Assembly (NCBI GenBank): GCA_018692315.1
Contig: JABHKC010000094.1
Coordinates: 1-35,791, forward strand
Length of the DNA: 35,791 nt
Source of the DNA: Bacteroidota bacterium
GTDB taxonomy: Bacteria; Bacteroidota; Bacteroidia; Bacteroidales; JABHKC01
Direction: 5' to 3'
The stretch's first letter is position 1, and every line of letters begins with the position of its first letter. Positions 3,774 to 26,342 of the stretch are shown here, in pieces. The notes under the pieces were generated by a model. The model was given only the letters and a program-made list of their open reading frames with translations, ran no database searches and was not told where the DNA came from. Made by a program: the position numbers and the translations under genes.

Positions 3774-6173
3774 TTATTTCAACCTCTTTCCAAAATATCG
3801 GGTAACAAAAGTGGCAAAAGCAACCACAGAAACTGAACTTACTGGCATTAGGATAGCAGCTACAACAGGCGAAAGATTTCCCGAAATTGCATAGCTAATT
3901 CCAATAATATTGTAAAAAAATGAAATAGCAAAACTCATTTTCACAATTTTCATTGCTGTTTTGGTGAAATTTATAAAATCGAAAAGTTTGTGAAACTTGC
4001 TTGCTTCAAGAATAGCATCGCCGGCTGGCGAAAAGTGATATACATTGTCGGCAATTGTCAGAGCTACATTGCTTTGCATCAATGCTCCGGCATCGTTTAA
4101 GCCATCACCGGTCATTAAAATTGTTTTGTTTTGGCTCTGAAGTTTTTTTATAAAATCTTTTTTGTCTTGAGGCTTTTGATTGAAATGCAAATGACTTTTT
4201 TTGAAATACTTAAGTAAATTGCTTTTTTCCGAATCGTTATCGCCCGACAATAAGAACAACTCAAATTTTTTAGTTAATGTATTTATAACATTCTGAAACC
4301 CAAAACGATATTTGTTATTGATTTGCCAAAAGCCTTTCATTTTTTCATTTATCGAAAGATAAACTGTAGTTGAGCTGTTAGCTTTGTTTTGTTCGGTATT
4401 TGCTACAAATTTTTCAGAACCTATCCTTATTTTAAGATTATCGAATTGGCAGAAAATCCCTTTTCCTGCCATCTCTACATATTGCTCAGGTTCTATATAG
4501 TCGCAATTTTCGTAGAACTTATATATCGCATTACTCAATGGATGGGTTGATTGTTTGCAAATCGACATTATTGCAGATTTCTCATTTTCAGATAATTCAC
4601 CACCTATAAATTTAATATTGTTTTCGTCAGGTTTTGTGATGGTTCCAGTTTTATCGAAAACTATCGTGTCAATTTTTGTGAGATTTTCGACAACCGATGT
4701 ATTTTTTAAATACATTCCGGCATTACCGAACAGCCGCATTGTATTTCCGAAAGTGAAAGGGATAGAAAGCGCTAAAGCACAAGGGCAAGCAACAATCAGC
4801 ACTGCCGTGAATGAAAATATGGCAGTTTTCACATCGCCCTGAAATAGCCAGAATGTTGAGCCAAGAATAGCTATAAACATTACTACAATTGTAAAATATT
4901 TACTTATTCTATCAATTAGATCCGATAAAGAAATCTTTTTCGAATCTTCGTTTTCGCTCTGATTCCATAGTTTTGTGAGGTGGCTTTGAACGACTTCTTT
5001 TTCTATTTTCACGGTGATAGAACTTCCGGTTTGCCTACCACCTGCATACACAAAATCGCCAACTTTTTTCAGTACTGGCTTCGATTCGCCCGATACAAAA
5101 CTGTAGTCGATAATTCCCGAACCACTCGATATTTTAGAATCTGCTGGTATTAGTTCTTTGTTTCTAATTAAAATTTCATCGCCTTTTTTTATTTCATTAA
5201 GTAATAAAACCTCCTCTTTTTCCTCAGAAATTTTTGTAACAGCTATTGGAAAATATGATTTGTAATCTCTGTCGAATGAAAGGGCATCGTAAGATTTTCC
5301 TTGATACCATTTTCCGAGTAGAAGAAAAAATATTAGTCCTGCCAGAGAGTCGGAATATCCTGTACCGGTGCCGGAAAAAATTTCGTAGGAAGTTTGCAGA
5401 AACAGCACTAAAATCCCGAGAGCAATAGGAATGTCGATGTTAATTACTTTTTTCTTCAGGCTTTTGTAAGCAGAAATTATATATCCGTTTCCACTAAAAA
5501 AAACTACTGGAAAAACCATTACATAACTCAAAATGCTTAAAAAAGAACCTAAATTTCCCTCTAATTGTTTTCCATTGAAATATTCGGGCAGAGCATAGAG
5601 CATCACATTTCCGAAAACGAAACCGGCTACGCCAATTTTGTAAAGCAGAATTTTGCTCGAATTCTTTTGAGAAGATTCATCTTTTGCGTTAAGAGAAATT
5701 TCCGGTTCGTAGTGTATTGATGCCAGTAGCTCGACAAGTTGCCGCAAACTTATTTTCGATTTGTCGAAAGTTACACTTACTTGTTTCTTAGAAAAATTTA
5801 CATAAGATATTTTTATGTCGGGATTCAAAAGTTTCAAATTTTCGAGTAGCCAAATGCAAGAGGCACAATGAATTGCCGGAATGTAGAGACTTACTTTTGC
5901 GATTTCTCCTTCGTCGAAATCAAATAATTTTTCATGAACTTCTTCGCGGTCGAGAAAATCGTATTTGCGGTTATACTTATTTTCGTTGGGCTTTATGCCC
6001 GGTGTTTTTTCAATTTCGTAATATTTGTAGAGCTTATTCTCATTCAACAATTGATAGACTGTAAGGCAGCCATTGCAGCAAAATTTCAAATCGTTCCAAA
6101 CTACTGGATATTTTCCGCAATCTGCCCCGCAATGAACGCATTTATGGTCTGTCTTCGAATTGCTTTTACTCAC
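3774..6173 (-). CDS. ccoI: CcoI copper-transporting P1B-type ATPase for cbb3 oxidase assembly
   Basis: A 799-residue heavy-metal P-type ATPase that moves copper across the membrane for the CuB site of cbb3 oxidase. In order: an N-terminal Cys-rich domain (CVHCGADC and FCCNGC, residues 12-35), a heavy-metal-associated domain with CASC near 103, transmembrane helices, the ion-path motif CPC in VACPCALALS, the phosphorylation motif DKTGT and the hinge motif GDGLND. The Cys-rich extension marks the FixI/CcoI subgroup. The start is GTG at 6173, which overlaps the last 8 bases of the upstream gene and suggests translational coupling. It is the last gene of the cco locus. The function is well known for the family. 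Confidence 0.93.
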   Translation of the reverse strand: MSKSNSKTDHKCVHCGADCGKYPVVWNDLKFCCNGCLTVYQLLNENKLYKYYEIEKTPGIKPNENKYNRKYDFLDREEVHEKLFDFDEGEIAKVSLYIPAIHCASCIWLLENLKLLNPDIKISYVNFSKKQVSVTFDKSKISLRQLVELLASIHYEPEISLNAKDESSQKNSSKILLYKIGVAGFVFGNVMLYALPEYFNGKQLEGNLGSFLSILSYVMVFPVVFFSGNGYIISAYKSLKKKVINIDIPIALGILVLFLQTSYEIFSGTGTGYSDSLAGLIFFLLLGKWYQGKSYDALSFDRDYKSYFPIAVTKISEEKEEVLLLNEIKKGDEILIRNKELIPADSKISSGSGIIDYSFVSGESKPVLKKVGDFVYAGGRQTGSSITVKIEKEVVQSHLTKLWNQSENEDSKKISLSDLIDRISKYFTIVVMFIAILGSTFWLFQGDVKTAIFSFTAVLIVACPCALALSIPFTFGNTMRLFGNAGMYLKNTSVVENLTKIDTIVFDKTGTITKPDENNIKFIGGELSENEKSAIMSICKQSTHPLSNAIYKFYENCDYIEPEQYVEMAGKGIFCQFDNLKIRIGSEKFVANTEQNKANSSTTVYLSINEKMKGFWQINNKYRFGFQNVINTLTKKFELFLLSGDNDSEKSNLLKYFKKSHLHFNQKPQDKKDFIKKLQSQNKTILMTGDGLNDAGALMQSNVALTIADNVYHFSPAGDAILEASKFHKLFDFINFTKTAMKIVKMSFAISFFYNIIGISYAISGNLSPVVAAILMPVSSVSVVAFATFVTRYFGKRLK

Positions 6174-6930
6174 TACAGCAAGGTTTTATTTTTGCAGCTT
6201 CTTTATACGAAATTGCTTTATTTTTTTTGAGTTCTTTATCGAATTTCATTTTGATTTTTTCTTCAGGAGGGCTGAGGAATGGAATGCCAAGATTTAAGCC
6301 GCGAAGAATAAAAACTATTCCGACAAAAACTATTACATAAGGAATAAGCTTATTGATTTTGTTTCTTAACGAAATACTGATCAGATTTCCAAGAATGGAA
6401 ACTACCAGTAGCATTGGGATTGTTCCAAGCCCGAACAAAACCATAAAAAGTATTCCTTGAACAAGCGATTGAGTGCCAATGGCTCCGGCAATTGCAATGT
6501 AAACCAATCCACAAGGCAAAAAGCCGTTCAATATTCCTATCCAAAACAATGCGCCAAAAGACCTTACAGTGAAAAGTCGCTGAAGTGCATTTTTTAGTTT
6601 TGTGAAAATTGAAAAGGCACTTTTATTTAAGTCGTATTGTTTTTTGAAAAGTGATGGGAACAGAACAGAAAGAACCATTATGGAACCCATAATTATTGAA
6701 ACCCATCTTTGAAATCCTATCATTTCGAGGCCTTGCCCAATCATTCCGAAAAATGCTCCTAAAACTCCATAAGTTATTGTTCGTCCTAAATTGTAAAGAA
6801 CAGCGCCGAAAACTTTTTGAAAATAGTTGTTGCCCTGCAAAGGAAGTGCAATTGCGATAGGCCCGCACATTCCAACACAATGAAAACTACCCATCAATCC
6901 GAGAATTAAACCTGGTATAAGAATTTCCAT
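6166..6930 (-). CDS. TauE/SafE-like (DsbD_2) membrane protein of the cco locus
   Basis: A 254-residue polytopic protein with about six to seven membrane helices. The N-terminus carries GSFHCVGMCGP (about 15-25), the hallmark of the family labelled sulfite exporter TauE/SafE or DsbD_2 that recurs beside ccoGHI in Bacteroidota. The paired Cys in that motif and the C-terminal CCSE hint at metal or thiol chemistry, and genetic neighbourhood suggests a role in copper delivery or cytochrome assembly rather than sulfite export. It overlaps ccoI by 8 bases and follows ccoH after 34 bases. Family call is firm; exact role is inference. Confidence 0.8.
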   Translation of the reverse strand: MEILIPGLILGLMGSFHCVGMCGPIAIALPLQGNNYFQKVFGAVLYNLGRTITYGVLGAFFGMIGQGLEMIGFQRWVSIIMGSIMVLSVLFPSLFKKQYDLNKSAFSIFTKLKNALQRLFTVRSFGALFWIGILNGFLPCGLVYIAIAGAIGTQSLVQGILFMVLFGLGTIPMLLVVSILGNLISISLRNKINKLIPYVIVFVGIVFILRGLNLGIPFLSPPEEKIKMKFDKELKKNKAISYKEAAKIKPCCSE

Positions 6931-6964: not shown

Positions 6965-7411
6965 TTATTTTATGCTATATTCTTTTTCGACAAGATATTG
7001 CTGATTGTCCATTTCCCAAGAAATTTTGATAATATACCTGCCTAAAGATAATTTATCTTTAGCAATTAAAATTTCATCGAAACTTTTATTAGGCTTTGCC
7101 TTAAAATCTTTTTTCTTATCGGAATGTCGAAAAAAATGAATCAAACAGTTTTCGATTTTTCTCGTTTTAAAATTTTCAAAGGATACAATTATATAATCTT
7201 GGTTCTCACTGATTTTTATGTTATTGAAATATTCAGCCGAGCGTTTTTTAATTTCAATCTGATTTGAATAATTTACTCCTTTTTCGTAATAATCGTCATG
7301 AACTAAGTTTGCATCGAATTGTAAAGAAAAAATGATGAAGCTTATTGCTAAAGTAAGGAAAATCATAATAAAAATGAAAATTCCTGTTCCCCAATTAAAT
7401 TTTATTTTCAT
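6965..7411 (-). CDS. ccoH: CcoH/FixH-like cbb3 oxidase assembly protein
   Basis: A 148-residue protein with one N-terminal membrane helix (about 9-30) and a periplasmic beta-rich domain. The segment after the helix, with DDYYEKGVNYSNQI at about 39-52, is the usual FixH/CcoH pattern (a D-x-Y-Y-x-x-G run). CcoH stabilises the oxidase during assembly and stays bound to CcoNO in studied bacteria. It lies between ccoG, 40 bases upstream, and the TauE/SafE-like gene. The sequence is weakly conserved in general, so position supports the call as much as sequence does. Confidence 0.85.
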   Translation of the reverse strand: MKIKFNWGTGIFIFIMIFLTLAISFIIFSLQFDANLVHDDYYEKGVNYSNQIEIKKRSAEYFNNIKISENQDYIIVSFENFKTRKIENCLIHFFRHSDKKKDFKAKPNKSFDEILIAKDKLSLGRYIIKISWEMDNQQYLVEKEYSIK

Positions 7412-7451: not shown

Positions 7452-8831
7452 TTATTTGTATTTACTATCTAAGGGTCCTACGAAACTTATTTCATAGTTT
7501 TCTATCAACTCGTTTTCGGCATAAATGCCAAATTCAACTTTAGTATTTTCGCCCGAAAGTTGGTTTTTATCAAGAGTAAGAACAAAAACCGATTCATACA
7601 ATCCATGTTTTTTAACTACTATTTCGCCACCTGCCAATTCAACTTTTCCTTGGTGCGATTCTAATTTCATTGTTAATGGAATATCGTCGTAGGTTTTATT
7701 TATTATTTTAATATTATAAATATTTGATAGTTTATTTTCACCCCGTTCTTGGAAAAGAGTTCCGGGTGTCCGCAATATTGTAGTTTCTATAATTGGCCTC
7801 GTAAAAAGCGTAACTATAAAGAAGGCAATTAAAACCAATAAAACAAAAGAATACGCTTTATTTCTGGTGTTCCATATAGTTTTATGTCCTTTTTCAATTC
7901 CTTCAATCGAATCGAATCGAATTAAATTTTGGGGTTTTTTCACTTTTTCCATTACAATGTTGCACTCGTCTATGCAGGCAGTGCAATTTATGCATTCAAG
8001 TTGAGTTCCATTTCTAATATCGATTCCTGTGGGGCAAACTGCTATACATTGCTTACAATCAATGCAATCACCCTGATTTTTGGCACCTCTCAGCTCACCT
8101 CTTTTATAATCGTATGCAACAATAATTGATTTTGAATCTAAAAGAACTCCTTGCATTCTGCCATATGGACAAATCATTGTGCAAATCTGTTCTCTAAAAA
8201 AGGAGTATATCCAATAGAATATACCTGAAATGATAAGCATAGCACTGAAGCCTGTGGTATGTTGATTTATAGGGTCTGACAGTAATTTTAGCAATTCTTC
8301 AAAACCTATAAACCACACTAAAAATACATTGGTTATTGTTATTGAAATGGCAATGAAAATGAAATGTTTTAAAATGAATTTGACTGTATTCCAAACGCTT
8401 ATAGAGTCATTTTTTGAAGATTTAGATTTTCTGTAAGATCCATCAAAAATGTATTCTATTTTTCTAAATATCATTTCCAGGAAAATGGTTTGAGGACAAG
8501 CCCAACCACACCATATTCGTCCGTATGTAACCGTAAAAAGAACTATAAATAGCACAAACGACAGCATCAGAAGTGCTAAAATTACCGTGTCTTGAGCCCA
8601 AAATATTATTCCAAAAATTATGAATTTTCTGTTTATAATATCTAAAAGCATGAATGGATGCCCATTTATTTTAATAATGGGCGCAAGAACAAAAAATATG
8701 AGCCAAAACCAACTAACAAATGTTCGCCATTTGTACCATTTGCCTATAGGTTTTTTTGCATAAATCCATTTTCTTCCGCCATCTTTGTCCATGTTTATAG
8801 GGCGGTCTCTATAAGTGTTTTTGTCTTTCAT
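7452..8831 (-). CDS. ccoG: CcoG/FixG ferredoxin-type cbb3 oxidase accessory protein
   Basis: A 459-residue membrane iron-sulfur protein that takes part in copper handling for cbb3 oxidase; in Rhodobacter it reduces Cu(II). Visible motifs are CGWACPQT on the loop after the second helix, CTMICPYGRMQG, and two 4Fe-4S ferredoxin motifs, CIDCKQCIAVCP and CINCTACIDEC, at about residues 255-290. About five membrane helices precede and follow these. The C-terminal 120 residues form an immunoglobulin-like domain as in other FixG proteins. A hairpin (8912-8945) separates it from ccoP, so it may start a second transcript unit or be read at lower level. Confidence 0.95.
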   Translation of the reverse strand: MKDKNTYRDRPINMDKDGGRKWIYAKKPIGKWYKWRTFVSWFWLIFFVLAPIIKINGHPFMLLDIINRKFIIFGIIFWAQDTVILALLMLSFVLFIVLFTVTYGRIWCGWACPQTIFLEMIFRKIEYIFDGSYRKSKSSKNDSISVWNTVKFILKHFIFIAISITITNVFLVWFIGFEELLKLLSDPINQHTTGFSAMLIISGIFYWIYSFFREQICTMICPYGRMQGVLLDSKSIIVAYDYKRGELRGAKNQGDCIDCKQCIAVCPTGIDIRNGTQLECINCTACIDECNIVMEKVKKPQNLIRFDSIEGIEKGHKTIWNTRNKAYSFVLLVLIAFFIVTLFTRPIIETTILRTPGTLFQERGENKLSNIYNIKIINKTYDDIPLTMKLESHQGKVELAGGEIVVKKHGLYESVFVLTLDKNQLSGENTKVEFGIYAENELIENYEISFVGPLDSKYK

Positions 8832-9013: not shown

Positions 9014-9607
9014 TTATTCGCAAATTTCACCTTGTGGCTCTTTTGCATTTTCAGGATTGCTATCTTTTAAGCTTACTAAGATGTAGCTTGCCGCTTGCTG
9101 AATTTTTTTTTCGTTCATTTGTGCTTTAAACGGAGTCATTCCTTTTGTAGGATTTCCGTTTTTGATAATATTAAAGACGCTTTCAAAATCGCAACCCGAC
9201 AACCAATGCTTATCTGTTAGATTTGGACCTATTGCATTTCCTTCTCCATTGGCACCATGGCATACGATACATGTCATGGTACTAAATAATTCTTTACCGG
9301 CTTTCAGAGATGCTTCATCAGTGAGGGTAGTCAATTTAGTGTCTTGTGCCTTATTTTTCGAATAAAGTAATGAGGCTTCTGCAACTTCTTTTTCGTATTC
9401 AGCATCCTGTAGATCGCCTTGTGTGAAAATGAAATAATGCTCGACATAAATCAATGAAAAAACTATAGTTATTATAAATATGGCAGATATCCATTTTGGA
9501 ACAGGATTGTTTAGTTCCTTAATGCCATCATAGTCATGCTCCATCAGTTTTTCATCATATTTTTCATTATAAGTATAATCTGGATTGTTTTTTTCTTCTT
9601 TCATCAT
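9014..9607 (-). CDS. ccoP: CcoP, cbb3 oxidase subunit III with a single cytochrome c domain
   Basis: A 197-residue membrane-anchored cytochrome c subunit. It has an N-terminal cytoplasmic stretch, one membrane helix at about 39-58 and one haem c site, CIVCH (Cys113, Cys116, His117), with a likely Met ligand in KGMTPF near 156. The usual CcoP of proteobacteria has two haem domains; this one has one, and a very similar domain sits at the C-terminus of the fused CcoNO. Two adjacent ATG codons (9607 and 9604) are possible starts. It follows ccoQ by 17 bases. Confidence 0.92.
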   Translation of the reverse strand: MMKEEKNNPDYTYNEKYDEKLMEHDYDGIKELNNPVPKWISAIFIITIVFSLIYVEHYFIFTQGDLQDAEYEKEVAEASLLYSKNKAQDTKLTTLTDEASLKAGKELFSTMTCIVCHGANGEGNAIGPNLTDKHWLSGCDFESVFNIIKNGNPTKGMTPFKAQMNEKKIQQAASYILVSLKDSNPENAKEPQGEICE

Positions 9608-9624
9608 TATTGAATTTTATATAA

Positions 9625-9819
9625 TTATTTGTCATTTTTAATGTCTAAAAGTTCTTTTTCGTCGAAAATAGCATTTTTTCTATTTGACATTTCAGAATTT
9701 GGTGTGCTATAGGTTCTAACTACTATTACGATAAATAAAAATAGAAAAATCAGCATTCCTACTATGTAATATGTCTGAATTCCAGCTATATTTTCTAAAA
9801 CATCGCTAACAATTTTCAT
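9625..9819 (-). CDS. ccoQ: CcoQ-like small cbb3 oxidase subunit
   Basis: A 64-residue protein with one membrane helix (about 18-38) and a charged cytoplasmic tail. Size, topology and position between ccoNO and ccoP, with only 2 bases after the ccoNO stop, match CcoQ/FixQ. Such subunits are poorly conserved, so the call rests mainly on context. Confidence 0.75.
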   Translation of the reverse strand: MKIVSDVLENIAGIQTYYIVGMLIFLFLFIVIVVRTYSTPNSEMSNRKNAIFDEKELLDIKNDK

Positions 9820-9821
9820 GC

Positions 9822-12254
9822 TTAATTTTTATTTAGTTCAAGTAGTACAAATGCTGTCAATTGAGTAATTTCTTCTTCAGAAAGTACGCCTTTAAAAGGT
9901 GTCATCCCTTTTTCAATCTTTCCATTAGAAATATTCTCATATACTCCTTCCGGAGATTTTTCAATAATCCATTCATTGTCGGTAAGGTCTGGCCCAATTA
10001 CATTTCCTTTCCCATCTGGTCCATGGCATATGATGCAATTTTTTTGAAAACTTGCTTTTCCGGCCGGAATCATTTCTTCAGTAATATTAACAGAAGTAGT
10101 TTTTACCGGTTCTGGTTTGGTTTCGACTACGGGTGTTATATCTCTACCGAGTTTGTGCAAGTATGCAATCATTGCAATCATTTGCTTTGTTGGTTCAATT
10201 TCAATTCCTGATTGTTTCAAATCGTCAGCTATTATTTGTGCCTGAGCTTTTAAATCGTCGATTGCTCTTTCGTCGAATCCTTCTTCGTAAGGAACTCCAA
10301 GAGTTTGCATAGCTCTAATTTTTGCCGGAATCATATCTAAATCAATGTCTTTTATTGCAAACCAATCGTATTTTGGCATAATCGATTGTTCGTTCATTCT
10401 TTGTGGATCCATAAAGTGATTATAGTGCCAAGAAGCTGTTTTGTACATATTGCCGGTTATGACTCCTGTTCTGGCCAAATCTGGTCCTGTTCTTCGTGAG
10501 CCCCATTGGAATGGATGATCGTAAACAAATTCGCCAATTTTTGAGTATTCTCCGTATCTGTCTGTTTCCCACCTGAATGGTCTAACCATTTGCGAATGAC
10601 AAGTATAACATCCTTCGCTAATATATATGTCTCTACCTTCTAATTCTAAAGGAGTATATGGTTTCACAGATTCGATAGTTGGTACATTAGATTTAACAAA
10701 AATCATTGGAATTATTTCTACAGCACCACCTATTGCCAATAAAACGAATGCCACAATAGCAAAACGTACGGGTTTTCTCTCTAACCAACGATGAATAGTT
10801 TCTCTTGCTGAGCTTCTTGATTCTTTATTTTCTAATGGGTAAGCTTCAGCAGCCTCGTTTGCTTCCATTGAACCTGCTGCCATTGTTTTAACTAAGTTCC
10901 AAACTAATAGTAAAAAGCCAACTAAATATAAAGTTCCACCAATAATTCTGAATGTATATAATGGAACAATTTGAGTAACTGTTTCTAAGAAATTAGGATA
11001 AGCCAAAAATCCTTCAGGAGTATATTCTCTCCACATTAACCATTGTGTGATAGCTGCCCAGTATAAAGGAATTGCATAAATTAACATACCGAGAGTTGCA
11101 ATCCAAAAATGTGTGTTTGCAATTTTTTCTGAGAAAAGTTTAGTTCGGAAAAGTTTTGGAACTAACCAATATAACATTCCAAATACTAATCCTCCGTTCC
11201 AGCCCATTCCGCCAATATGAACGTGAGCAATAGTCCAGTCGGTAAAGTGGCTGATAGCATTTACGTTTTTCAATGACATCATTGGTCCTTCGAATGTTGA
11301 CATTCCGTATGCTGTAACTGCTACTACCATAAATTTTAGAGCTGCACTATCTCGTACTTTATCCCAGGCACCTCTCAATGTTAGCAATCCATTTATCATG
11401 CCTCCCCAGGATGGTGCTATGAGCATAATTGAAAAAGTTACTCCAAGTGCCTGTGCCCAATCTGGCAATGCCTGATATAATAAATGGTGAGGGCCTGCCC
11501 ACATATAAATAAAAATCAATGCCCAGAAGTGAACAATTGATAATTTATAAGAATATATCGGTCGTCCGGCTGCTTTCGGAAGATAATAGTACATTAAACC
11601 AAGGAATGGTGTTGTTAAGAAAAAGGCTACTGCATTATGGCCATACCACCATTGTACAACTGCATCTTGAGCACCTGCATATATTGGGTAACTTTTAAAT
11701 AATGAAACAGGTAATTCAAATGAGTTTACTACATGGAGCATAGCTACTCCAAGGAAGGAGGCAAGATACCACCAAATGGCTGCATAAATGTGTTTTTCTC
11801 TTCTGATGATAATTGTTCCTATCATATTCCAGCCAAAAACCACCCATACTACAGTAATCATAATATCAATCGGCCACTCTAATTCTGCATATTCTTTTCC
11901 GGTGGTAATTCCGGCAAAAAATGTCAAGGCTGCACAAAGTATAATAAACTGCCAGCCCCAAAAATTTATTTTGCTTAGAACATCATTGAACATTCTGGTT
12001 TTCAGCAACTTTTGCATTGAATAATAAACTCCTGCGTAAATTGCATTTCCAACAAAAGCAAAAATTACAGCATTCGTATGAATTGGTCTTATTCGTCCGA
12101 AAGTTGTAAATTCTAAACCAAAATTGAAAAACGGGAACGATAGCTGAAGTGCAGCTAAAAGCCCAACCAGGATTGCAACCACTCCCCAAATTATGGTTGC
12201 TAAAATGAATAGCTTGACAATTTTGTTGTCATAATTAAATTTTTGAATCTCCAT
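9822..12254 (-). CDS. ccoNO: Fused CcoN-CcoO cbb3 oxidase subunit with extra C-terminal cytochrome c domain
   Basis: An 810-residue fusion forming the catalytic core of cbb3 oxidase, which reduces oxygen to water at low oxygen. Residues 1-460 are CcoN: twelve helices and haem/copper His ligands in RPIHTNA (His59), WWYGHNAV (His206), GPHHLLY (256, 257) and IAHVHIGG (344, 346). A short linker leads to CcoO, anchored by a helix at about 498-518, with haem site CYTCH (Cys549, Cys552, His553) and SIMPKYDW. CcoN-O fusions are common in Bacteroidota. A further soluble cytochrome c domain lies at 725-810, with CIICH (Cys740, Cys743, His744) and KGMTPF, close in sequence to the CcoP domain. The ATG at 12254 lies 11 bases after ccoS. 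Confidence 0.97.
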   Translation of the reverse strand: MEIQKFNYDNKIVKLFILATIIWGVVAILVGLLAALQLSFPFFNFGLEFTTFGRIRPIHTNAVIFAFVGNAIYAGVYYSMQKLLKTRMFNDVLSKINFWGWQFIILCAALTFFAGITTGKEYAELEWPIDIMITVVWVVFGWNMIGTIIIRREKHIYAAIWWYLASFLGVAMLHVVNSFELPVSLFKSYPIYAGAQDAVVQWWYGHNAVAFFLTTPFLGLMYYYLPKAAGRPIYSYKLSIVHFWALIFIYMWAGPHHLLYQALPDWAQALGVTFSIMLIAPSWGGMINGLLTLRGAWDKVRDSAALKFMVVAVTAYGMSTFEGPMMSLKNVNAISHFTDWTIAHVHIGGMGWNGGLVFGMLYWLVPKLFRTKLFSEKIANTHFWIATLGMLIYAIPLYWAAITQWLMWREYTPEGFLAYPNFLETVTQIVPLYTFRIIGGTLYLVGFLLLVWNLVKTMAAGSMEANEAAEAYPLENKESRSSARETIHRWLERKPVRFAIVAFVLLAIGGAVEIIPMIFVKSNVPTIESVKPYTPLELEGRDIYISEGCYTCHSQMVRPFRWETDRYGEYSKIGEFVYDHPFQWGSRRTGPDLARTGVITGNMYKTASWHYNHFMDPQRMNEQSIMPKYDWFAIKDIDLDMIPAKIRAMQTLGVPYEEGFDERAIDDLKAQAQIIADDLKQSGIEIEPTKQMIAMIAYLHKLGRDITPVVETKPEPVKTTSVNITEEMIPAGKASFQKNCIICHGPDGKGNVIGPDLTDNEWIIEKSPEGVYENISNGKIEKGMTPFKGVLSEEEITQLTAFVLLELNKN

Positions 12255-12265
12255 AGTTAAATGAT

Positions 12266-12427
12266 TTAGTTAGTATCTTTTTTTATTTCTTCATCGTCAA
12301 ATAAAATTCGGACAGAGGGAGTAAAGTCATCATCGAATTGCCCATTTTTTACAGCCCAAATGAATATTGCTAAAAAAATTAGTGCTATTATGAGACTTGC
12401 TCCTATTAAGAGGTAAAATATATTCAT
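12266..12427 (-). CDS. ccoS: CcoS cbb3 oxidase maturation protein
   Basis: A 53-residue protein found by direct translation of the minus strand: it begins MNIFYLLIGASLIIALIFLA, has one membrane helix and then the CcoS signature FIWAVKNGQFDDDFTPSVRI with a further acidic stretch FDDEE. CcoS is needed for putting haem b and CuB into CcoN. It starts the cco locus, 11 bases upstream of ccoNO. Length and motif are normal for the family. Confidence 0.93.
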   Translation of the reverse strand: MNIFYLLIGASLIIALIFLAIFIWAVKNGQFDDDFTPSVRILFDDEEIKKDTN

Positions 12428-12820
12428 TAAATTTAATTTCAAATTATTATGATAAATGTTTTTGGTTTCAATTGGTTCTAAAATTACTTTTAGTTTTTAC
12501 TTAAAGCAGAAACCCAATTATAATTATCATATTTTTTAACAAAATTTCAAAATAAAATCGTGGCAATATATTAAAAAATTATAAAAGTTTTAACAAATAT
12601 TTCAAAATATGTCAATTTTATAAATATGAAATTATTATAAATTTGTAAGCAAATCATGTTGGAACTCCTTGATTAATGCTTAGTTATTGATATTTAGCAA
12701 TTTGCATATATAGATATGTCTATATGTAATTTCAAATAAAAATATAAATAGCTTCTAAATATTTGTTAATTTTTTTTTAATTCATGGGTGTTGTTATTAT
12801 ACCAGACAAAATTTCAAAAA
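12428..12820. other. Intergenic region upstream of the cco locus
   Basis: This stretch holds no gene I can support. On the minus strand it must contain the promoter of ccoS, but I found no TAnnTTTG element. It has an FNR-like site (12687-12700) and, beside it, a perfect 7-4-7 inverted repeat with arms ATATAGA (12708-12714) and TCTATAT (12719-12725). Confidence 0.5.
12687..12700. promoter_or_regulatory. Candidate FNR/CRP-type site upstream of cco
   Basis: The sequence TTGATATTTAGCAA matches TTGAT-N4-ATCAA at nine of ten positions. FNR control of cbb3 oxidase is well known in other phyla. The site is about 260 bases from ccoS and no -7 element was found at a suitable distance, so this is tentative. 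Confidence 0.3.
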
Positions 12821-14297: not shown

Positions 14298-15707
14298 TTA
14301 TTTAGTGTTATAGTATTCAAACATTCTTCTAGATTTTATTGTTTTTGCAACAAATTGAGGAACCATTGTCTCCCATTCATTATTTCCTTCTTTTATAAGC
14401 TCAATTACTTTTCGTGGAAATATATGTAACAAACTTTTATCAAAGTTATGAATATTTATTATTTTTCCGGAGTCTATCAGATACTGATGGATATTTTTTG
14501 TATTATTGTTTAGAGTAATATTTTCTGAGCAGATTAATTCTTTTTTGTTTTCAACTTGTGTAGGATAAACATACATTTTTACATTATTCTTGAACAATCT
14601 GCCAAAACCTTGCAGAATCCCTCCACTTAGATTTGTATAATATTCACGATGAAACAGATTTTGATAAGTTGTTGAACCAATGATGATGCCGATTTGGTAT
14701 ATTTTATAAATATCGAAATACGAAACAAATTCGTGATGTTGTTTCATGTCAGAAATAATAACATTTATACCTAATCCATTGAGTAAATCTACACGATCTA
14801 AGAAGTCCTTTTCATCGAAATCGCCTTCCATGAGCAGATTTTCTAAGCTAATTTCGCAAAAAAGTAATGTATTTTCTTCATTGCAATTGTTTTCGGTTTT
14901 GAACAGTTCGAAGCCTTTTTTCAGCATATCGACACCAACCAGTGTAATTGGGCGAAAGCTTCCTCTAAGAACCATGATGTTTTTTTTGTAAAAAATATCT
15001 GAAGGAGGTCTTACATTGTGGTCGTTGTCGAAAACTGTAGCATTTGTCATTTTGTTTTTAACAAGCTGTACGCTAATCAACCTATTGTCTATGTAGTCAA
15101 GATCTGGACCAGTCATTCTAATCATATCAATTTCTAACTGGTCTCTAGAAAGAAAATCCATTAAAGATCGCAGAAAGCTACTGGGATATTTATTGAAATA
15201 GAAAGCTGCATAAATTAGATTAACTCCAAGAATTCCGATAGTTCTCTGTTGCAGAAGATTGTCTTTTTCGTACATTTTTACATGAAGCAAAATTTCGTTT
15301 GCTTCATAACCAGGGTGTAGTTGAAATTTTATCCCAATCCAACCATGACTTTCGTTAGTTTTCTGAAAATTTATTGCTGAAACTGTATTTGCAAAAGCAA
15401 AAAAGCATGTGTTTCCTTGTTTTATGTTTTGTAGCGAGCTTACGATTTGTTTGTACTCAATTTCGAGCATTTTTTTCAATCTTTCTTCGCTTACATATCT
15501 TTTACTATGAGTTTCGCCATAGAGATTGTTGCTTAAAGCCATGTCGTATGCAGAAATGGTTTTGGCAACTGTTCCCGAAGAACCCCCGGCAGTGAAGAAT
15601 CGCCGGGCAACTTCTTGTCCTGCACCAATTTCAGCAATTGTCCCAAAAAAACGATTGTCAAGATTTATTCTTAGTGCTTTTTGTCTGGGACTATTTATTG
15701 TTTCCAT
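14298..15707 (-). CDS. Conserved protein of unknown function
   Basis: A 469-residue soluble protein with no signal peptide or clear membrane helix. It opens with a striking conserved-looking block at about residues 10-60: ALRINLDNRFFGTIAEIGAG, then QEVARRFFTAGGSSGTVAKT and SAYDMALSNNLYG. I recognise this as a widespread bacterial family sometimes labelled nicotinate-nucleotide adenylyltransferase in databases, but I see no HxGH nucleotidyltransferase motif, so I do not adopt that name. The later part (about 220-470) is alpha/beta in character. The ATG at 15707 is preferred over a TTG one codon upstream. It sits 34 bases after bcp and 7 bases before the FNR-like reductase, so the two are probably co-translated partners. 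Confidence 0.75.
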   Translation of the reverse strand: METINSPRQKALRINLDNRFFGTIAEIGAGQEVARRFFTAGGSSGTVAKTISAYDMALSNNLYGETHSKRYVSEERLKKMLEIEYKQIVSSLQNIKQGNTCFFAFANTVSAINFQKTNESHGWIGIKFQLHPGYEANEILLHVKMYEKDNLLQQRTIGILGVNLIYAAFYFNKYPSSFLRSLMDFLSRDQLEIDMIRMTGPDLDYIDNRLISVQLVKNKMTNATVFDNDHNVRPPSDIFYKKNIMVLRGSFRPITLVGVDMLKKGFELFKTENNCNEENTLLFCEISLENLLMEGDFDEKDFLDRVDLLNGLGINVIISDMKQHHEFVSYFDIYKIYQIGIIIGSTTYQNLFHREYYTNLSGGILQGFGRLFKNNVKMYVYPTQVENKKELICSENITLNNNTKNIHQYLIDSGKIINIHNFDKSLLHIFPRKVIELIKEGNNEWETMVPQFVAKTIKSRRMFEYYNTK

Positions 15708-15744
15708 CAATTGATTGTTTAGCTTGTTAGTTTCGTATTATGGC

Positions 15745-22177: not shown

Positions 22178-23665
22178 ATGACAAAGAAAAGAGGAACTAT
22201 TAATTGGATACCATTTATCATCTCCTTGGTAGTGGTATTTATTTTAGGATTATTTGCATCGTCGATTTTGGAAAGGCGGGCAGAAGCAGTTTTTGCATAT
22301 GCTCCGCAAACTAAGATTGCTGATTTCGAACCGAGAAACGAAGTTTGGGGGAAAAATTTTCCAAGGCAATACGAATCTTACTACGAAACTGCAGATACTA
22401 CTTTTTATAGCAAGTATAATGGTGGTGGAATGATTGATATGTTAGAGGTTGATCCTCGCTTAGTGGTGATGTGGGCAGGATACGGTTTTGCAAAAGACTA
22501 CAATCAAGGAAGAGGCCATGTTTATGCTGTGGAAGATCTTAGGAAATCATTAAGAACAGGAGGACCGACTAATAGTAGCGACGGACCAATGCCAGCAACA
22601 TGTTGGACATGTAAAAGTCCTGATGTTCCAAGAGTTATGAACAGAGATGGTGTTGCAGAATTTTACTCCGGAAAATGGTCGAGAATAGGTTCGGAAATTG
22701 TTAATCCAATAGGTTGTGGTGATTGCCACGATCCTGAAACTCAGGATTTAACAATAACAAGACCTGCATTGATTGAAGGATTTGAAAAAATGGGGAAGGA
22801 TATTAACAAAGCTACTCATCAGGAGATGAGGTCTTTGGTATGTGCACAATGTCACGTCGAATACTATTTCGATAAAAATAAAGTAAAAGGAAGTGCATAT
22901 TTAACCTTACCTTGGGACAATGGTTTGAAATGTGAAGATGTTGAAAAATATTACGATGATTTAAATTTCAAAGATTGGACACATAAAGTAAGTAAAGCTC
23001 CAATGTTAAAAACTCAACATCCGGGATACGAGATTTATCTAACTGGTGTACATGCAGATAGAGGTGTTTCTTGTGCCGATTGTCATATGCCTTATAAAAG
23101 CGAAGGCGGTGTAAAATTCACAGATCATAAAATTCAAAGTCCATTAAATAATGTTGCTAATTCTTGTCAGGTATGCCACCGCGAAGAAACTGACAGATTA
23201 TTAGAAGATGTTTATGACAGGCAAGACAAAATTATCGAGAACAGAGACAAATTGGAAGAATTGATAGTACGTGCACATGTTGAAGCAAAATTTGCCTGGG
23301 ATAAAGGAGCTACAGAAGAGCAAATGAAAGATATTTTAATGGATATCAGACATGCTCAATGGAGATGGGATTATGCAGCAGCCAGCCATGGTGGATCATT
23401 TCACTCACCTGTTGAAGTTGGTCGAATTATTTCTACCGGAATTACTATCGCTCAAGAGGGCAGAATAAAATTAGCCAGATTGTTTGCCGATTTAGGATTT
23501 AACCAAGAAATTCCATATCCAGATATTACAACAAAAGCAAAAGCTCAGGAATTTATCGGACTCGACAAAGAAAAAATGGATGCTACTAAAGCAAAATTCT
23601 TGAGAGAATTAGCTCCTAAATGGGACGAATTAGCTAAAGAAAGAGAAAGTAAAATGAATATTTAA
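22178..23665 (+). CDS. nrfA: NrfA, pentahaem cytochrome c nitrite reductase
   Basis: A 495-residue enzyme that reduces nitrite to ammonium with six electrons. The active-site haem has the Lys-ligated motif CWTCK (142-146); four ordinary sites follow: CGDCH (180-184), CAQCH (222-226), CADCH (299-303) and CQVCH (330-334). Active-site Tyr229 (CHVEYYF) and His281 (TQHPGYE) are present. An N-terminal hydrophobic segment (10-30) without a clear cleavage site may stay as an anchor. Its partner NrfH is upstream and a porin lies 17 bases downstream. Confidence 0.97.
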   Translation: MTKKRGTINWIPFIISLVVVFILGLFASSILERRAEAVFAYAPQTKIADFEPRNEVWGKNFPRQYESYYETADTTFYSKYNGGGMIDMLEVDPRLVVMWAGYGFAKDYNQGRGHVYAVEDLRKSLRTGGPTNSSDGPMPATCWTCKSPDVPRVMNRDGVAEFYSGKWSRIGSEIVNPIGCGDCHDPETQDLTITRPALIEGFEKMGKDINKATHQEMRSLVCAQCHVEYYFDKNKVKGSAYLTLPWDNGLKCEDVEKYYDDLNFKDWTHKVSKAPMLKTQHPGYEIYLTGVHADRGVSCADCHMPYKSEGGVKFTDHKIQSPLNNVANSCQVCHREETDRLLEDVYDRQDKIIENRDKLEELIVRAHVEAKFAWDKGATEEQMKDILMDIRHAQWRWDYAAASHGGSFHSPVEVGRIISTGITIAQEGRIKLARLFADLGFNQEIPYPDITTKAKAQEFIGLDKEKMDATKAKFLRELAPKWDELAKERESKMNI

Positions 23666-23682
23666 AATTAAAAAACAACAAA

Positions 23683-24936
23683 ATGAAATTATTATTAAAA
23701 ACACAAATTTTTATACTATTAGCACTTTTCAGTATTAACTCGTTCGGACAATTTTCTTTAAGTGGAGAATTCAGACCACGTACCGAATTTAGCCATGGAT
23801 ATAAATCATTAGCCTCTCCTGACCAGGAAGCCTCATTATTCACAGCTCAGCGAACAAGATTAAATTTTGATTATAAAAATGACCTTTATAAAGTGAAATT
23901 GACACTTCAAGACGTTCGTGCCTGGGGAAGTCAAAAGCAATTAGTATCAAACGAAGATTTTGCTACTTCTGTACACGAAGCTTGGGCTGAGGTGTTTTTT
24001 ACAGAGAAAATATCTTTAAAAGCAGGTCGTCAGGAATTGGTTTACGATGATCACAGAATTTTTGGAAGTGTTGGTTGGGCAAATCAAGCACGTTCGCATG
24101 ATGTTGCTTTATTGAAATTTAAATTGGACTGTGATGTTCATATTGGGTTTGCTTACAATGAGAATACAAACAGAACCAATAATTTTTATGATGGACCAGA
24201 TGCCTACAAAGCAATGCAATTTTTCCACTGGAATCGTAAATTTGAAAAACTTTCAGCAAGCATTTTGTTTTTAAATAATGGAAAAGCCTTTGCCGATGAA
24301 GTAGATAGCTTAGGAAATGTTACAGCGCAAGGAGTTCAATATAGCCAAACAATTGGGGCAAGACTTGCTTATAAAGCAGGGAAATTAGGAGTAGCTGGAT
24401 ATTTCTACTATCAGATGGGTAAAGACGGAACAGATACAGAATTAAGTGCATACGATGCTGCTCTAGATCTTTCTTATGGAGTTAGTGATAATCTTTCTTT
24501 TAATGCAGGATTTGAACTTCTTTCCGGAGACGATGGTACAGATGATAAAAACAATTCATTTACTCCTTTCTATGGAACAAATCATAAATTTAATGGATTT
24601 ATGGATTATTTCTATGTTGGACAGCCAGGTGGATTTGGTTTACAAGATATTTATCTGAAAGGAAAATATAAGCATGGAAAAATGTTCTTTGCACTTCATG
24701 CACATCTTCTTTCAACTGCAGTAGATATTAGTGAAGATTTTGATAAAGGACTTGGTACAGAAATAGACTTTTTCTGTGGATATAACCTTTCGAAACAAGC
24801 AAATATCAAACTCGGATATTCCCAAATGCTTGGAACAGAATCTATGGAAGCAATCAGAGGTGGAAGTATGGATGAAACAAGCAACTGGGCTTGGTTGATG
24901 CTTACTGTTAAACCAACATTTTTCAAATCTGAATAA
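23683..24936 (+). CDS. Outer-membrane porin, alginate-export-like beta barrel
   Basis: A 417-residue protein with a signal peptide ending at SFGQ (about 23). The rest is made of alternating amphipathic strands such as FSLSGEFRPRTEFSHGYKSL and ending with a Trp-rich strand NWAWLMLTVKPTFF, typical of the alginate_export/porin superfamily. It begins 17 bases after nrfA, so it is probably co-transcribed and may admit nitrite, nitrate or other anions; that role is inference. No terminator was clear between it and the resB promoter. Confidence 0.8.
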   Translation: MKLLLKTQIFILLALFSINSFGQFSLSGEFRPRTEFSHGYKSLASPDQEASLFTAQRTRLNFDYKNDLYKVKLTLQDVRAWGSQKQLVSNEDFATSVHEAWAEVFFTEKISLKAGRQELVYDDHRIFGSVGWANQARSHDVALLKFKLDCDVHIGFAYNENTNRTNNFYDGPDAYKAMQFFHWNRKFEKLSASILFLNNGKAFADEVDSLGNVTAQGVQYSQTIGARLAYKAGKLGVAGYFYYQMGKDGTDTELSAYDAALDLSYGVSDNLSFNAGFELLSGDDGTDDKNNSFTPFYGTNHKFNGFMDYFYVGQPGGFGLQDIYLKGKYKHGKMFFALHAHLLSTAVDISEDFDKGLGTEIDFFCGYNLSKQANIKLGYSQMLGTESMEAIRGGSMDETSNWAWLMLTVKPTFFKSE

Positions 24937-24970
24937 ATTTGAACTTGAGACAGCTTAGCTTAACAAATTA

Positions 24971-24998
24971 TTGATTGTTAATTTTTATTCTATATTTG
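24971..24998 (+). promoter_or_regulatory. Probable promoter for resB-ccsA
   Basis: TTG (24971-24973) and TATATTTG (24991-24998) with a 17-base spacer fit the Bacteroidota promoter. The resB ATG is about 60 bases downstream. Confidence 0.5.
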
Positions 24999-25058
24999 CG
25001 ATCTGAATTTGAAAAAGACTATCATAAAGATAGGCGAACCTTGAGTTAATTGAAATTT

Positions 25059-26342
25059 ATGGATAAAGATATAAAACAAAATAAAGTTTTATGGAAATTC
25101 CCTTGGGGCTACCCCGAGGGTTTTTTTATAGCTTTCATACTATTAATAGTTGGTTTCGGAATTGAATACTTTTCCGGAGGCAAAGGAATCGCTACACTTT
25201 CATGGAATGTGAATGCCATTATAGGAATATTGTTTATAAACGTTTTAATAACAGTAAATTATTATTTCAGAGAATCTAATATTGTCAAATTTCTATCGGG
25301 TATCCCTGCCTCTATAAGTGCTATAAGTGTATTTACTTTTGTTGTATTACTGATGGGTTTGACCCCTCAATTCGACGATCAAGTTGGTGAATTCGCAAGA
25401 AAATTAGGATTGTCGCATATTACTTCAAGTTGGCAATATTTATTGATTCAAACATATTTTCTAATTACACTTGGCTTTGTTACTCTAAAAAAAGCAATTC
25501 CGTTTGAATGGAAAAATTTTGGATTCATTCTCAATCATGCAGGAGTTTGGATAACAATCGTAACTGCATCTTTGGGTACAGGCGATTTGAAACGGCTTCA
25601 TTTGAAACTTGATGAAACACAAGCCGTTTGGCATGCTTTCGATGGAGAAAATAATAGTTATAAGCTACCATTTGCTATGAAATTGTTGGATTTTAATATT
25701 GAAGAATATAATCCAAAAATTGCCTTGGTTGATAATTATTTAGGCTCAATTGTAGTTGATGATAGAGTTAGTGCATTTACAATAGAAAAAGGTATTACCC
25801 AAAAACTGTTAGATTTTGAAATTAGCATAGAAGAATATTTACCACTATCTGCGACTTTAGGTCAAGAATTCAGAATTTTTACGGAAAAAGGAGCAGCACC
25901 TTCTTCCTTTATTAAAGTGAAAAATATTGTTTCCAATGATACAATATCAGGTTGGATTTCATGCGGAAATTTTGCGATAAAAAGGCGTTCCTTAAAAATC
26001 AGCGATAAATATTCTTTATATATGTTATCTCCTGTAGCAAAAAAATATAGTTCAGAAATTGCTCTATATTATCATGAGTTTTCGGAAACAGATACTACAA
26101 ACATTAGCGATACAATTTTAATAGAAGTCAATAAACCATTCAAATTTGGTGGTTGGAAAATGTATCAGCAAAGCTATGATGAATATCTTGGAAGATGGTC
26201 GGAAACAAGTGTAATTGAGATTGTTAGAGACCCATGGTTGCCTTTGGTATATTTTGGCATTTTTCTTATGATTGCCGGTGCAATTTATATTTTCTGGACT
26301 GGGCAAAAAATTTCACTCAAAGAAGATAAAAATGAAAGTTGA
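25059..26342 (+). CDS. resB: ResB-like cytochrome c biogenesis protein
   Basis: A 427-residue membrane protein of the System II (ResB/CcsB) cytochrome c maturation pathway, working with CcsA to attach haem to CxxCH sites outside the membrane. It has four helices, three near the N-terminus and one at about 393-413, around a large periplasmic domain. ATG at 25059 is preferred; an upstream in-frame TTG at 25050 adds three residues. It lies downstream of nrfHA, whose nine haems need such machinery, but has its own promoter-like element. Confidence 0.85.
   Translation: MDKDIKQNKVLWKFPWGYPEGFFIAFILLIVGFGIEYFSGGKGIATLSWNVNAIIGILFINVLITVNYYFRESNIVKFLSGIPASISAISVFTFVVLLMGLTPQFDDQVGEFARKLGLSHITSSWQYLLIQTYFLITLGFVTLKKAIPFEWKNFGFILNHAGVWITIVTASLGTGDLKRLHLKLDETQAVWHAFDGENNSYKLPFAMKLLDFNIEEYNPKIALVDNYLGSIVVDDRVSAFTIEKGITQKLLDFEISIEEYLPLSATLGQEFRIFTEKGAAPSSFIKVKNIVSNDTISGWISCGNFAIKRRSLKISDKYSLYMLSPVAKKYSSEIALYYHEFSETDTTNISDTILIEVNKPFKFGGWKMYQQSYDEYLGRWSETSVIEIVRDPWLPLVYFGIFLMIAGAIYIFWTGQKISLKEDKNES

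Follow-up and report, generated by a model that had tools for sequence, protein, structure and literature searches.

The window that we analysed is a stretch of 35,791 nucleotides from a Bacteroidota bacterium (contig JABHKC010000094.1). Its minus strand carries an operon with the gene order ccoS, ccoNO, a ccoQ-like gene, ccoP, ccoG, ccoH, a gene of the DsbD_2 family and a ccoI-type ATPase gene. The features are as follows.

12266 to 12442, minus strand: ccoS, 58 aa (PF03597 FixS, E 2e-20).
9822 to 12254, minus strand: ccoNO-c, a fused CcoN-CcoO with an extra C-terminal cytochrome c domain, 810 aa (NF011053, bifunctional cbb3 subunit I/II).
10929 to 12224, minus strand: CcoN (COX1) part of the fusion, residues 11-442 (Pfam COX1, E 1e-113; TIGR00780 ccoN, 624 bits, cut-off 583).
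10137 to 10793, minus strand: CcoO (FixO) part, residues 488-706, with the haem site CYTCH at 549-553 (Pfam FixO, E 5e-90; TIGR00781).
10071 to 10136, minus strand: linker, residues 707-728, variable among relatives (AlphaFold pLDDT below 50 at residues 704-719).
9843 to 10070, minus strand: extra cytochrome c domain, residues 729-804, with CIICH at 740-744 and a likely axial Met 784 (Pfam, PDB matches, alignment and fold).
9625 to 9819, minus strand: ccoQ-like small protein, 64 aa, with a hydrophobic stretch (sequence, and position between ccoNO and ccoP).
9014 to 9607, minus strand: ccoP, 197 aa, FixP_N and one cytochrome c domain, CIVCH at 113 (Pfam and CxxCH count).
7452 to 8831, minus strand: ccoG (TIGR02745 above cut-off).
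6965 to 7411, minus strand: ccoH (PF05751 FixH, E 1e-15).
6166 to 6930, minus strand: DsbD_2-family membrane protein of the same gene cluster (PF13386, E 2e-48).
3774 to 6173, minus strand: P-type ATPase, ccoI by position and family (PF12156, PF00122 and PF00702 above cut-off, PF00403 slightly below).

Assembly genes of the CcoGHIS type are present according to Pfam and NCBIfam, with ccoI assigned by family and position only, and the 64-aa ccoQ-like protein gave no match in either collection. Matches to an FNR-like box with one mismatch number seven in the window, where 5.9 are expected by chance. Elsewhere in the window, a NrfA-type cytochrome c552 nitrite reductase (PF02335) is encoded at 22178-23665, in a region (22178-26342) that also encodes an Alginate_exp-like and a ResB-like protein; a 470-aa reading frame without a Pfam match (14298-15710) adjoins a gene for a NAD-binding oxidoreductase.

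The initial annotation had described a third cytochrome domain at the end of a CcoN-CcoO fusion, and the 810-aa reading frame at 9822-12254 (-) does contain it. Pfam places COX1 at residues 11-442, FixO at 488-706 and Cytochrome_CBB3 at 730-803 (E 4e-14), and the CxxCH motifs of the fusion are CYTCH at 549 and CIICH at 740. The protein scores 1194.2 bits against NF011053, above the cut-off of 1080. Its CcoN part is assigned as the catalytic subunit by TIGR00780 (624 bits over 583) and by COX1 (E 1e-113), and its CcoO part as the mono-haem subunit by TIGR00781 (232.6 bits, cut-off 200.65) and the CYTCH at 549. Histidines 206, 256, 257, 344 and 346, which we take to be residues of the oxygen-reducing haem b3-CuB site, are invariant among 48 aligned sequences. 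The operon is that of a cbb3-type (C-family) oxygen reductase; reduction of O2 itself is predicted.

The extra domain closely resembles CcoP, as had been claimed: both of the motifs quoted for it, NVIGPDLTDNEW and KGMTPF, occur in the sequence, and residues 714-808 of the fusion are 43% identical to CcoP (E 2e-18), which is far beyond chance. The domain is modelled with a cytochrome c fold (pLDDT 83.5). The AlphaFold model of the full-length fusion as a single chain has a mean pLDDT of 74, falls below 50 in the linker (704-719), and gives no haem-haem geometry or docking site. The cysteines, the histidine and the distal methionine (C, C, H, M) are aligned in 48 of 48 extensions, and a narrower motif around the methionine fits 37 of the 48. 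By its CxxCH and distal Met the extension classifies as a c-type cytochrome, with predicted haem attachment. The dN/dS of the extension was 0.02-0.17 in the 10 of 14 close pairs for which it could be computed, and in 13 of the 14 its dN was higher than the core's. Such comparisons show the extension to be under purifying selection at the codon level, with its predicted haem ligands kept. It is also dispensable, as close relatives do without it.

The CcoP of the window was thought to hold one haem, and the frame at 9014-9607 indeed comprises FixP_N and a single cytochrome domain with a single CxxCH (CIVCH at 113). With one CxxCH, and 88.9 bits against TIGR00782 where the cut-off is 179.95, it does not classify as a di-haem CcoP. 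We surveyed 165 distinct loci (50 of them extended), most of them from the window's order or among its best matches and 29 (L032-L060) from the class and phylum sample. A CcoP sequence was available at 159 of the 165 loci; the stretches examined at the other 6 contained none. One CxxCH was found in 158 of the 159 CcoPs, that is, at 48/48 extended and 110/111 short loci, a count that is a minimum for four frames running past the end of their stretch. The sole CcoP with two CxxCH motifs, at L039, is 409 aa long. A one-haem CcoP is the background state in the surveyed loci, with or without the extension. The classical cbb3 complex has three haems c. The initial annotation's total of three for this locus holds by CxxCH count, but its classical yardstick misleads, because the usual surveyed complex is one of two haems c by the same count, and the extended form would have three.

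Several lines of evidence bear on where the extra domain came from. Its six best rows in the PDB are CcoP chains, with the first haem domain matched in 5 of the 6, and the CcoP of the window likewise matches CcoP chains best. In the sample of the window's order, the stronger matches to the extension outside CcoNO were mostly reading frames adjoining ccoNO, i.e., CcoP. The mark of a CcoP origin that we regard as strongest is a C-terminal tail typical of CcoP (GTNPxNAKxPQGE), which in its loose form ends 21 of 49 complete extensions and 126 of 154 CcoPs, and none of 99 other CxxCH reading frames; the extended locus L097, cut by a contig end, was left out of this count. The strict form of the tail occurs in 14 extensions, in 47 CcoPs and in no other CxxCH reading frame at these loci. 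The tail is absent from the extension in the window and from those of the window's nearest relatives. The domain trees do not place the extra domain far from CcoP; extensions and CcoP domains intermingle in trees that held only these two kinds of sequence and no unrelated cytochromes. Foldseek listed 50 matches of the domain model, which are cytochromes c of several other families with no CcoP chain among them. The sequences suggest that the extra domain most likely arose by copying of the cytochrome domain of CcoP, in agreement with the duplication that the initial annotation had considered.

The extended form is not the rule in Bacteroidota. Among 393 genomes of the order to which the window belongs, the fusion was matched in 75 at E up to 1e-50. 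A full-length CcoNO was matched in 68 of these, of which 20 are extended and 48 short; the other 7, which gave no more than a fragment or a distant match, were left out. In the class-wide sample, a query spanning the junction matched 139 of 295 genomes, and among the 138 besides the window's own, which belong to the same class outside the order, one (G902) is extended. The other matching genomes of the class showed no match running from CcoO into the domain and no reading frame of 780 aa or more; a few of the matches are fragments, and G236 matched at CcoP only. In the phylum sample 271 of 395 genomes matched, and among the matches listed the window's own is the only extended form. Repeats (16 sets), reading frames below 650 aa and the partial L002 were dropped before CcoNO rows were counted. 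Extended forms occur in Maribellus and Draconibacterium, including the complete genome of D. orientale, and short forms in Marinifilum, Labilibaculum and Ancylomarina. Five extended metagenome-assembled genomes (L102, L124, L133, L134 and L141) are titled Chlorobi or Chlorobiota; their CcoNO sequences fall among those of the Bacteroidales type, so their titles may be wrong. The extended form is real, selected and largely restricted to a clade.

In the phylogeny of the CcoN-CcoO core, a branch with a support of 97 has the 49 extended forms on one side, along with 37 short ones. Presence and absence of the extension require 11 changes on this tree, 12 after three loci including G902 are added, and 11 in a reduced set with G902, of which at least 8 are forced by starred branches. 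The hypothesis that the extended forms make up one clade of the core tree is rejected (p 4e-38, reduced set with G902). By itself, the core tree does not separate gains from losses. The domain trees, from which long-branched, near-identical and thinned rows were left out, speak to this distinction. Tests of four trees under one model, on 110 columns, reject copying within each named lineage, with every extension joined to its own CcoP (p-AU 5.5e-6); they do not reject a single clade of extensions (p 0.32) or a duplication on the stem (0.22). One extension clade, the stem duplication, and a grouping of the f21 extensions with their own CcoP were none of them rejected singly. The window's own extension is long-branched; it was left out of one domain tree and restored for the p-AU test. 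With about 11 changes on the core tree, copying by lineage rejected and a single origin tolerated by the tests, the best fit is one gain and many losses. A single gain by copying of the CcoP domain, followed by repeated losses, would thus be the history best supported by the tests. The short form L123, which groups with the extended L106 and L109, has a linker-like end similar to theirs, followed by a stop, and this end looks like the scar of a loss of the extension. Inspection by eye of the sequence past the stop codon in 10 short forms revealed no remnant of the domain, except for the linker of L123.

An alternative explanation is that a CcoP domain was added to the end of CcoO two or more times, instead of being gained once and lost often. 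The free domain trees, in which the extensions form several groups and not one clade, and their bootstraps, with 4-6 changes, are consistent with this, and given about 110 alignment columns two or three gains may have occurred. However, besides the contrast between the rejected copying by lineage and the tolerated single clade, the best CcoP match of an extension is its own CcoP in just 1 of 46 loci, and the class sample yielded only one extended genome outside the order. We therefore regard repeated gain as somewhat unlikely. Far less credit is due to the other origin raised by the initial annotation, in which a second haem domain of CcoP was moved onto CcoO. In its favour, the three haems c counted here match the classical complement; yet short fusions that lack the domain have a one-haem CcoP as well (110/111), which argues that in this lineage no second CcoP haem was relocated to CcoO, and we reject the relocation on this ground. 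In addition, the tails kept by the extensions are those of the present one-haem CcoP, and 5 of the 6 CcoP matches fall on the first haem domain. That the domain was relocated is highly improbable. A fuller version of the single gain may be offered tentatively, although we would not rely on it: one lineage of the Bacteroidales type would have fused a CcoP domain to CcoO once, obtaining a built-in cytochrome c able to receive electrons without a soluble carrier, and some ten descendant lineages would have lost it as their donors changed.

Both halves of this architecture are of known kinds, as NCBIfam holds models for CcoNO and for CcoO joined to a cytochrome c. NF011053, the putative bifunctional cbb3-type subunit I/II of Bacteroidota, describes the same protein over residues 2-708 of the fusion; the model ends at the CcoO part, whereas the protein in the window continues for about 100 residues with another cytochrome c. 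NF011054 (PRK14486, putative bifunctional cbb3-type subunit II / cytochrome c) describes CcoO followed by a cytochrome c, so that a fusion of these two is itself of a known kind; residues 491-803 align with it, but at 244.4 bits, where the cut-off is 447, the protein is not a member, and NF011054 proteins are not fused to CcoN. In the caa3-type oxidases the donor cytochrome c is covalently tethered, as we propose for the extension; caa3 is an A-family enzyme and carries its cytochrome c on CoxB. In the solved cbb3 oxidases (3mk7, 6xkw, 8smr, 8snh, 9g6b and 9g83) CcoN and CcoO are homologous to the fusion but are separate chains. CcoP is homologous in the five with a CcoP match and has two matching haem domains where alignments are available; in the window it has one, and a third haem site lies on CcoO. 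Fusion of subunits I and II has been published, for example for Melioribacter roseus and for enzymes of Bacteroidetes/Chlorobi (PMC3534657 and PMC5492636). The tri-haem CcoP of Neisseria resembles the protein described here in that a subunit of the cbb3 oxidase has gained an extra C-terminal cytochrome c, preceded by a low-complexity linker; this extra domain sits on CcoP, stems from cytochrome c5 and affects nitrite reduction, whereas in the window it sits on CcoO and probably stems from CcoP, and in one Neisseria species the domain was cut off again (PMC2924362). The engineered supercomplex of CcoP and cytochrome cy likewise has a tethered donor, but this Rhodobacter construct is man-made and the tether is on CcoP (PMC7876108). 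Judged by title and the opening of the abstract, none of the papers listed by our literature searches describes the CcoN-CcoO-cytochrome c form, which appears to be a hitherto undescribed version of a familiar enzyme and not a system of a new kind.

Taking structure and history together, we consider it probable that the locus encodes a cbb3 reductase with a copy of the CcoP domain tethered to CcoO, gained once and lost repeatedly, whose haem is an outer, electron-accepting one. In solved cbb3 oxidases, electrons from cytochrome c are taken to enter at the CcoP haems and to reach the active site by way of the CcoO haem and then haem b (PMC7876108). The extension would bind its haem in the periplasm and, on a flexible linker, would take electrons from a donor, possibly ActE of an alternative complex III (ACIII) or a small cytochrome c, and pass them via CcoP and/or the haem of CcoO to haem b and the b3-CuB site. 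In this way the extension would supply the outer, electron-accepting haem that is missing from the one-haem CcoP, or act as a tethered shuttle. A tethered electron-entry haem, like that of the caa3 oxidases, is the most likely role, with transfer of electrons through it presumed. The covalent tie to the core claimed by the initial annotation is real in the sense that the cytochrome domain is continuous with CcoN-CcoO in one 810-aa protein; that it fixes the path of the electrons to the core is plausible.

In the genome of the window, just one protein matches COX1 at E up to 1e-20. The genome also contains, beside nar-like genes, an ACIII cluster in which ActA to ActF were assigned from gene order and family (ActE with one haem), and further small cytochromes c that are candidate donors. 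At L166 (4080-19581), ACIII-type genes are followed on the same strand by genes for a cytochrome c and for NarG-, NarH-, NarJ- and NarI-like proteins, the last three named from sequence without a profile scan, suggesting a quinol-cytochrome-nitrate reductase gene cluster. A second cluster of NrfD type, at L168 (2651-6977), encodes a 296-aa protein without a Pfam match, a 141-aa cytochrome c, and a putative multi-haem cytochrome and cytochrome b-like protein that were not profile-scanned. ACIII may be the donor in the window's genome. It is not a general one, as its marker ActB was found in just 4 of 20 extended genomes; among short genomes, those that share the extended side of the core tree have it in 5 of 24 cases and those on the other side in 20 of 24. 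For NosZ the corresponding counts are 0/20, 6/24 and 9/24. No link of either gene with the extension could be shown beyond kinship, the independent pairs being too few for significance despite the differing raw counts (two genomes were left out of the pair comparison as duplicates).

The extra haem might instead be a branch point that hands electrons to another periplasmic reductase or cytochrome, in place of accepting them or besides doing so. The tri-haem CcoP of Neisseria provides a precedent (PMC2924362 and PMC8552683), and the NrfA gene in the window (22178-23665) and the nar-like genes beside ACIII could encode recipients of such electrons. The raw NosZ counts, 0/20 in extended against 15/48 in short genomes, run opposite to a link with that enzyme, although there are too few independent pairs for a test, and among the genes scanned no reductase was recognised adjoining the oxidase operon. 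We deem a branch point unlikely. Still less probable, and indeed improbable, is that the extension is a remnant, decaying or structural, that contributes little to redox chemistry. Its higher dN than the core's, seen in 13 of 14 pairs, and its repeated absence would agree with decay; on the other side stand the ligands C, C, H and M aligned in all 48 extensions and a dN/dS well under 1. An electron-entry haem remains the reading that we prefer.

Many Bacteroidota use alternative complex III rather than bc1, and the delivery of electrons to their cbb3 oxidases is poorly known. Near relatives with and without the tethered haem, with a one-haem CcoP in both, constitute a natural experiment on whether donor use changes with an additional outer haem or a tethered carrier. 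This experiment extends over named genera, with Draconibacterium and Maribellus on the extended side and Marinifilum and Labilibaculum on the short side. The haem counts of the classical cbb3 complex should not be assumed for Bacteroidota.
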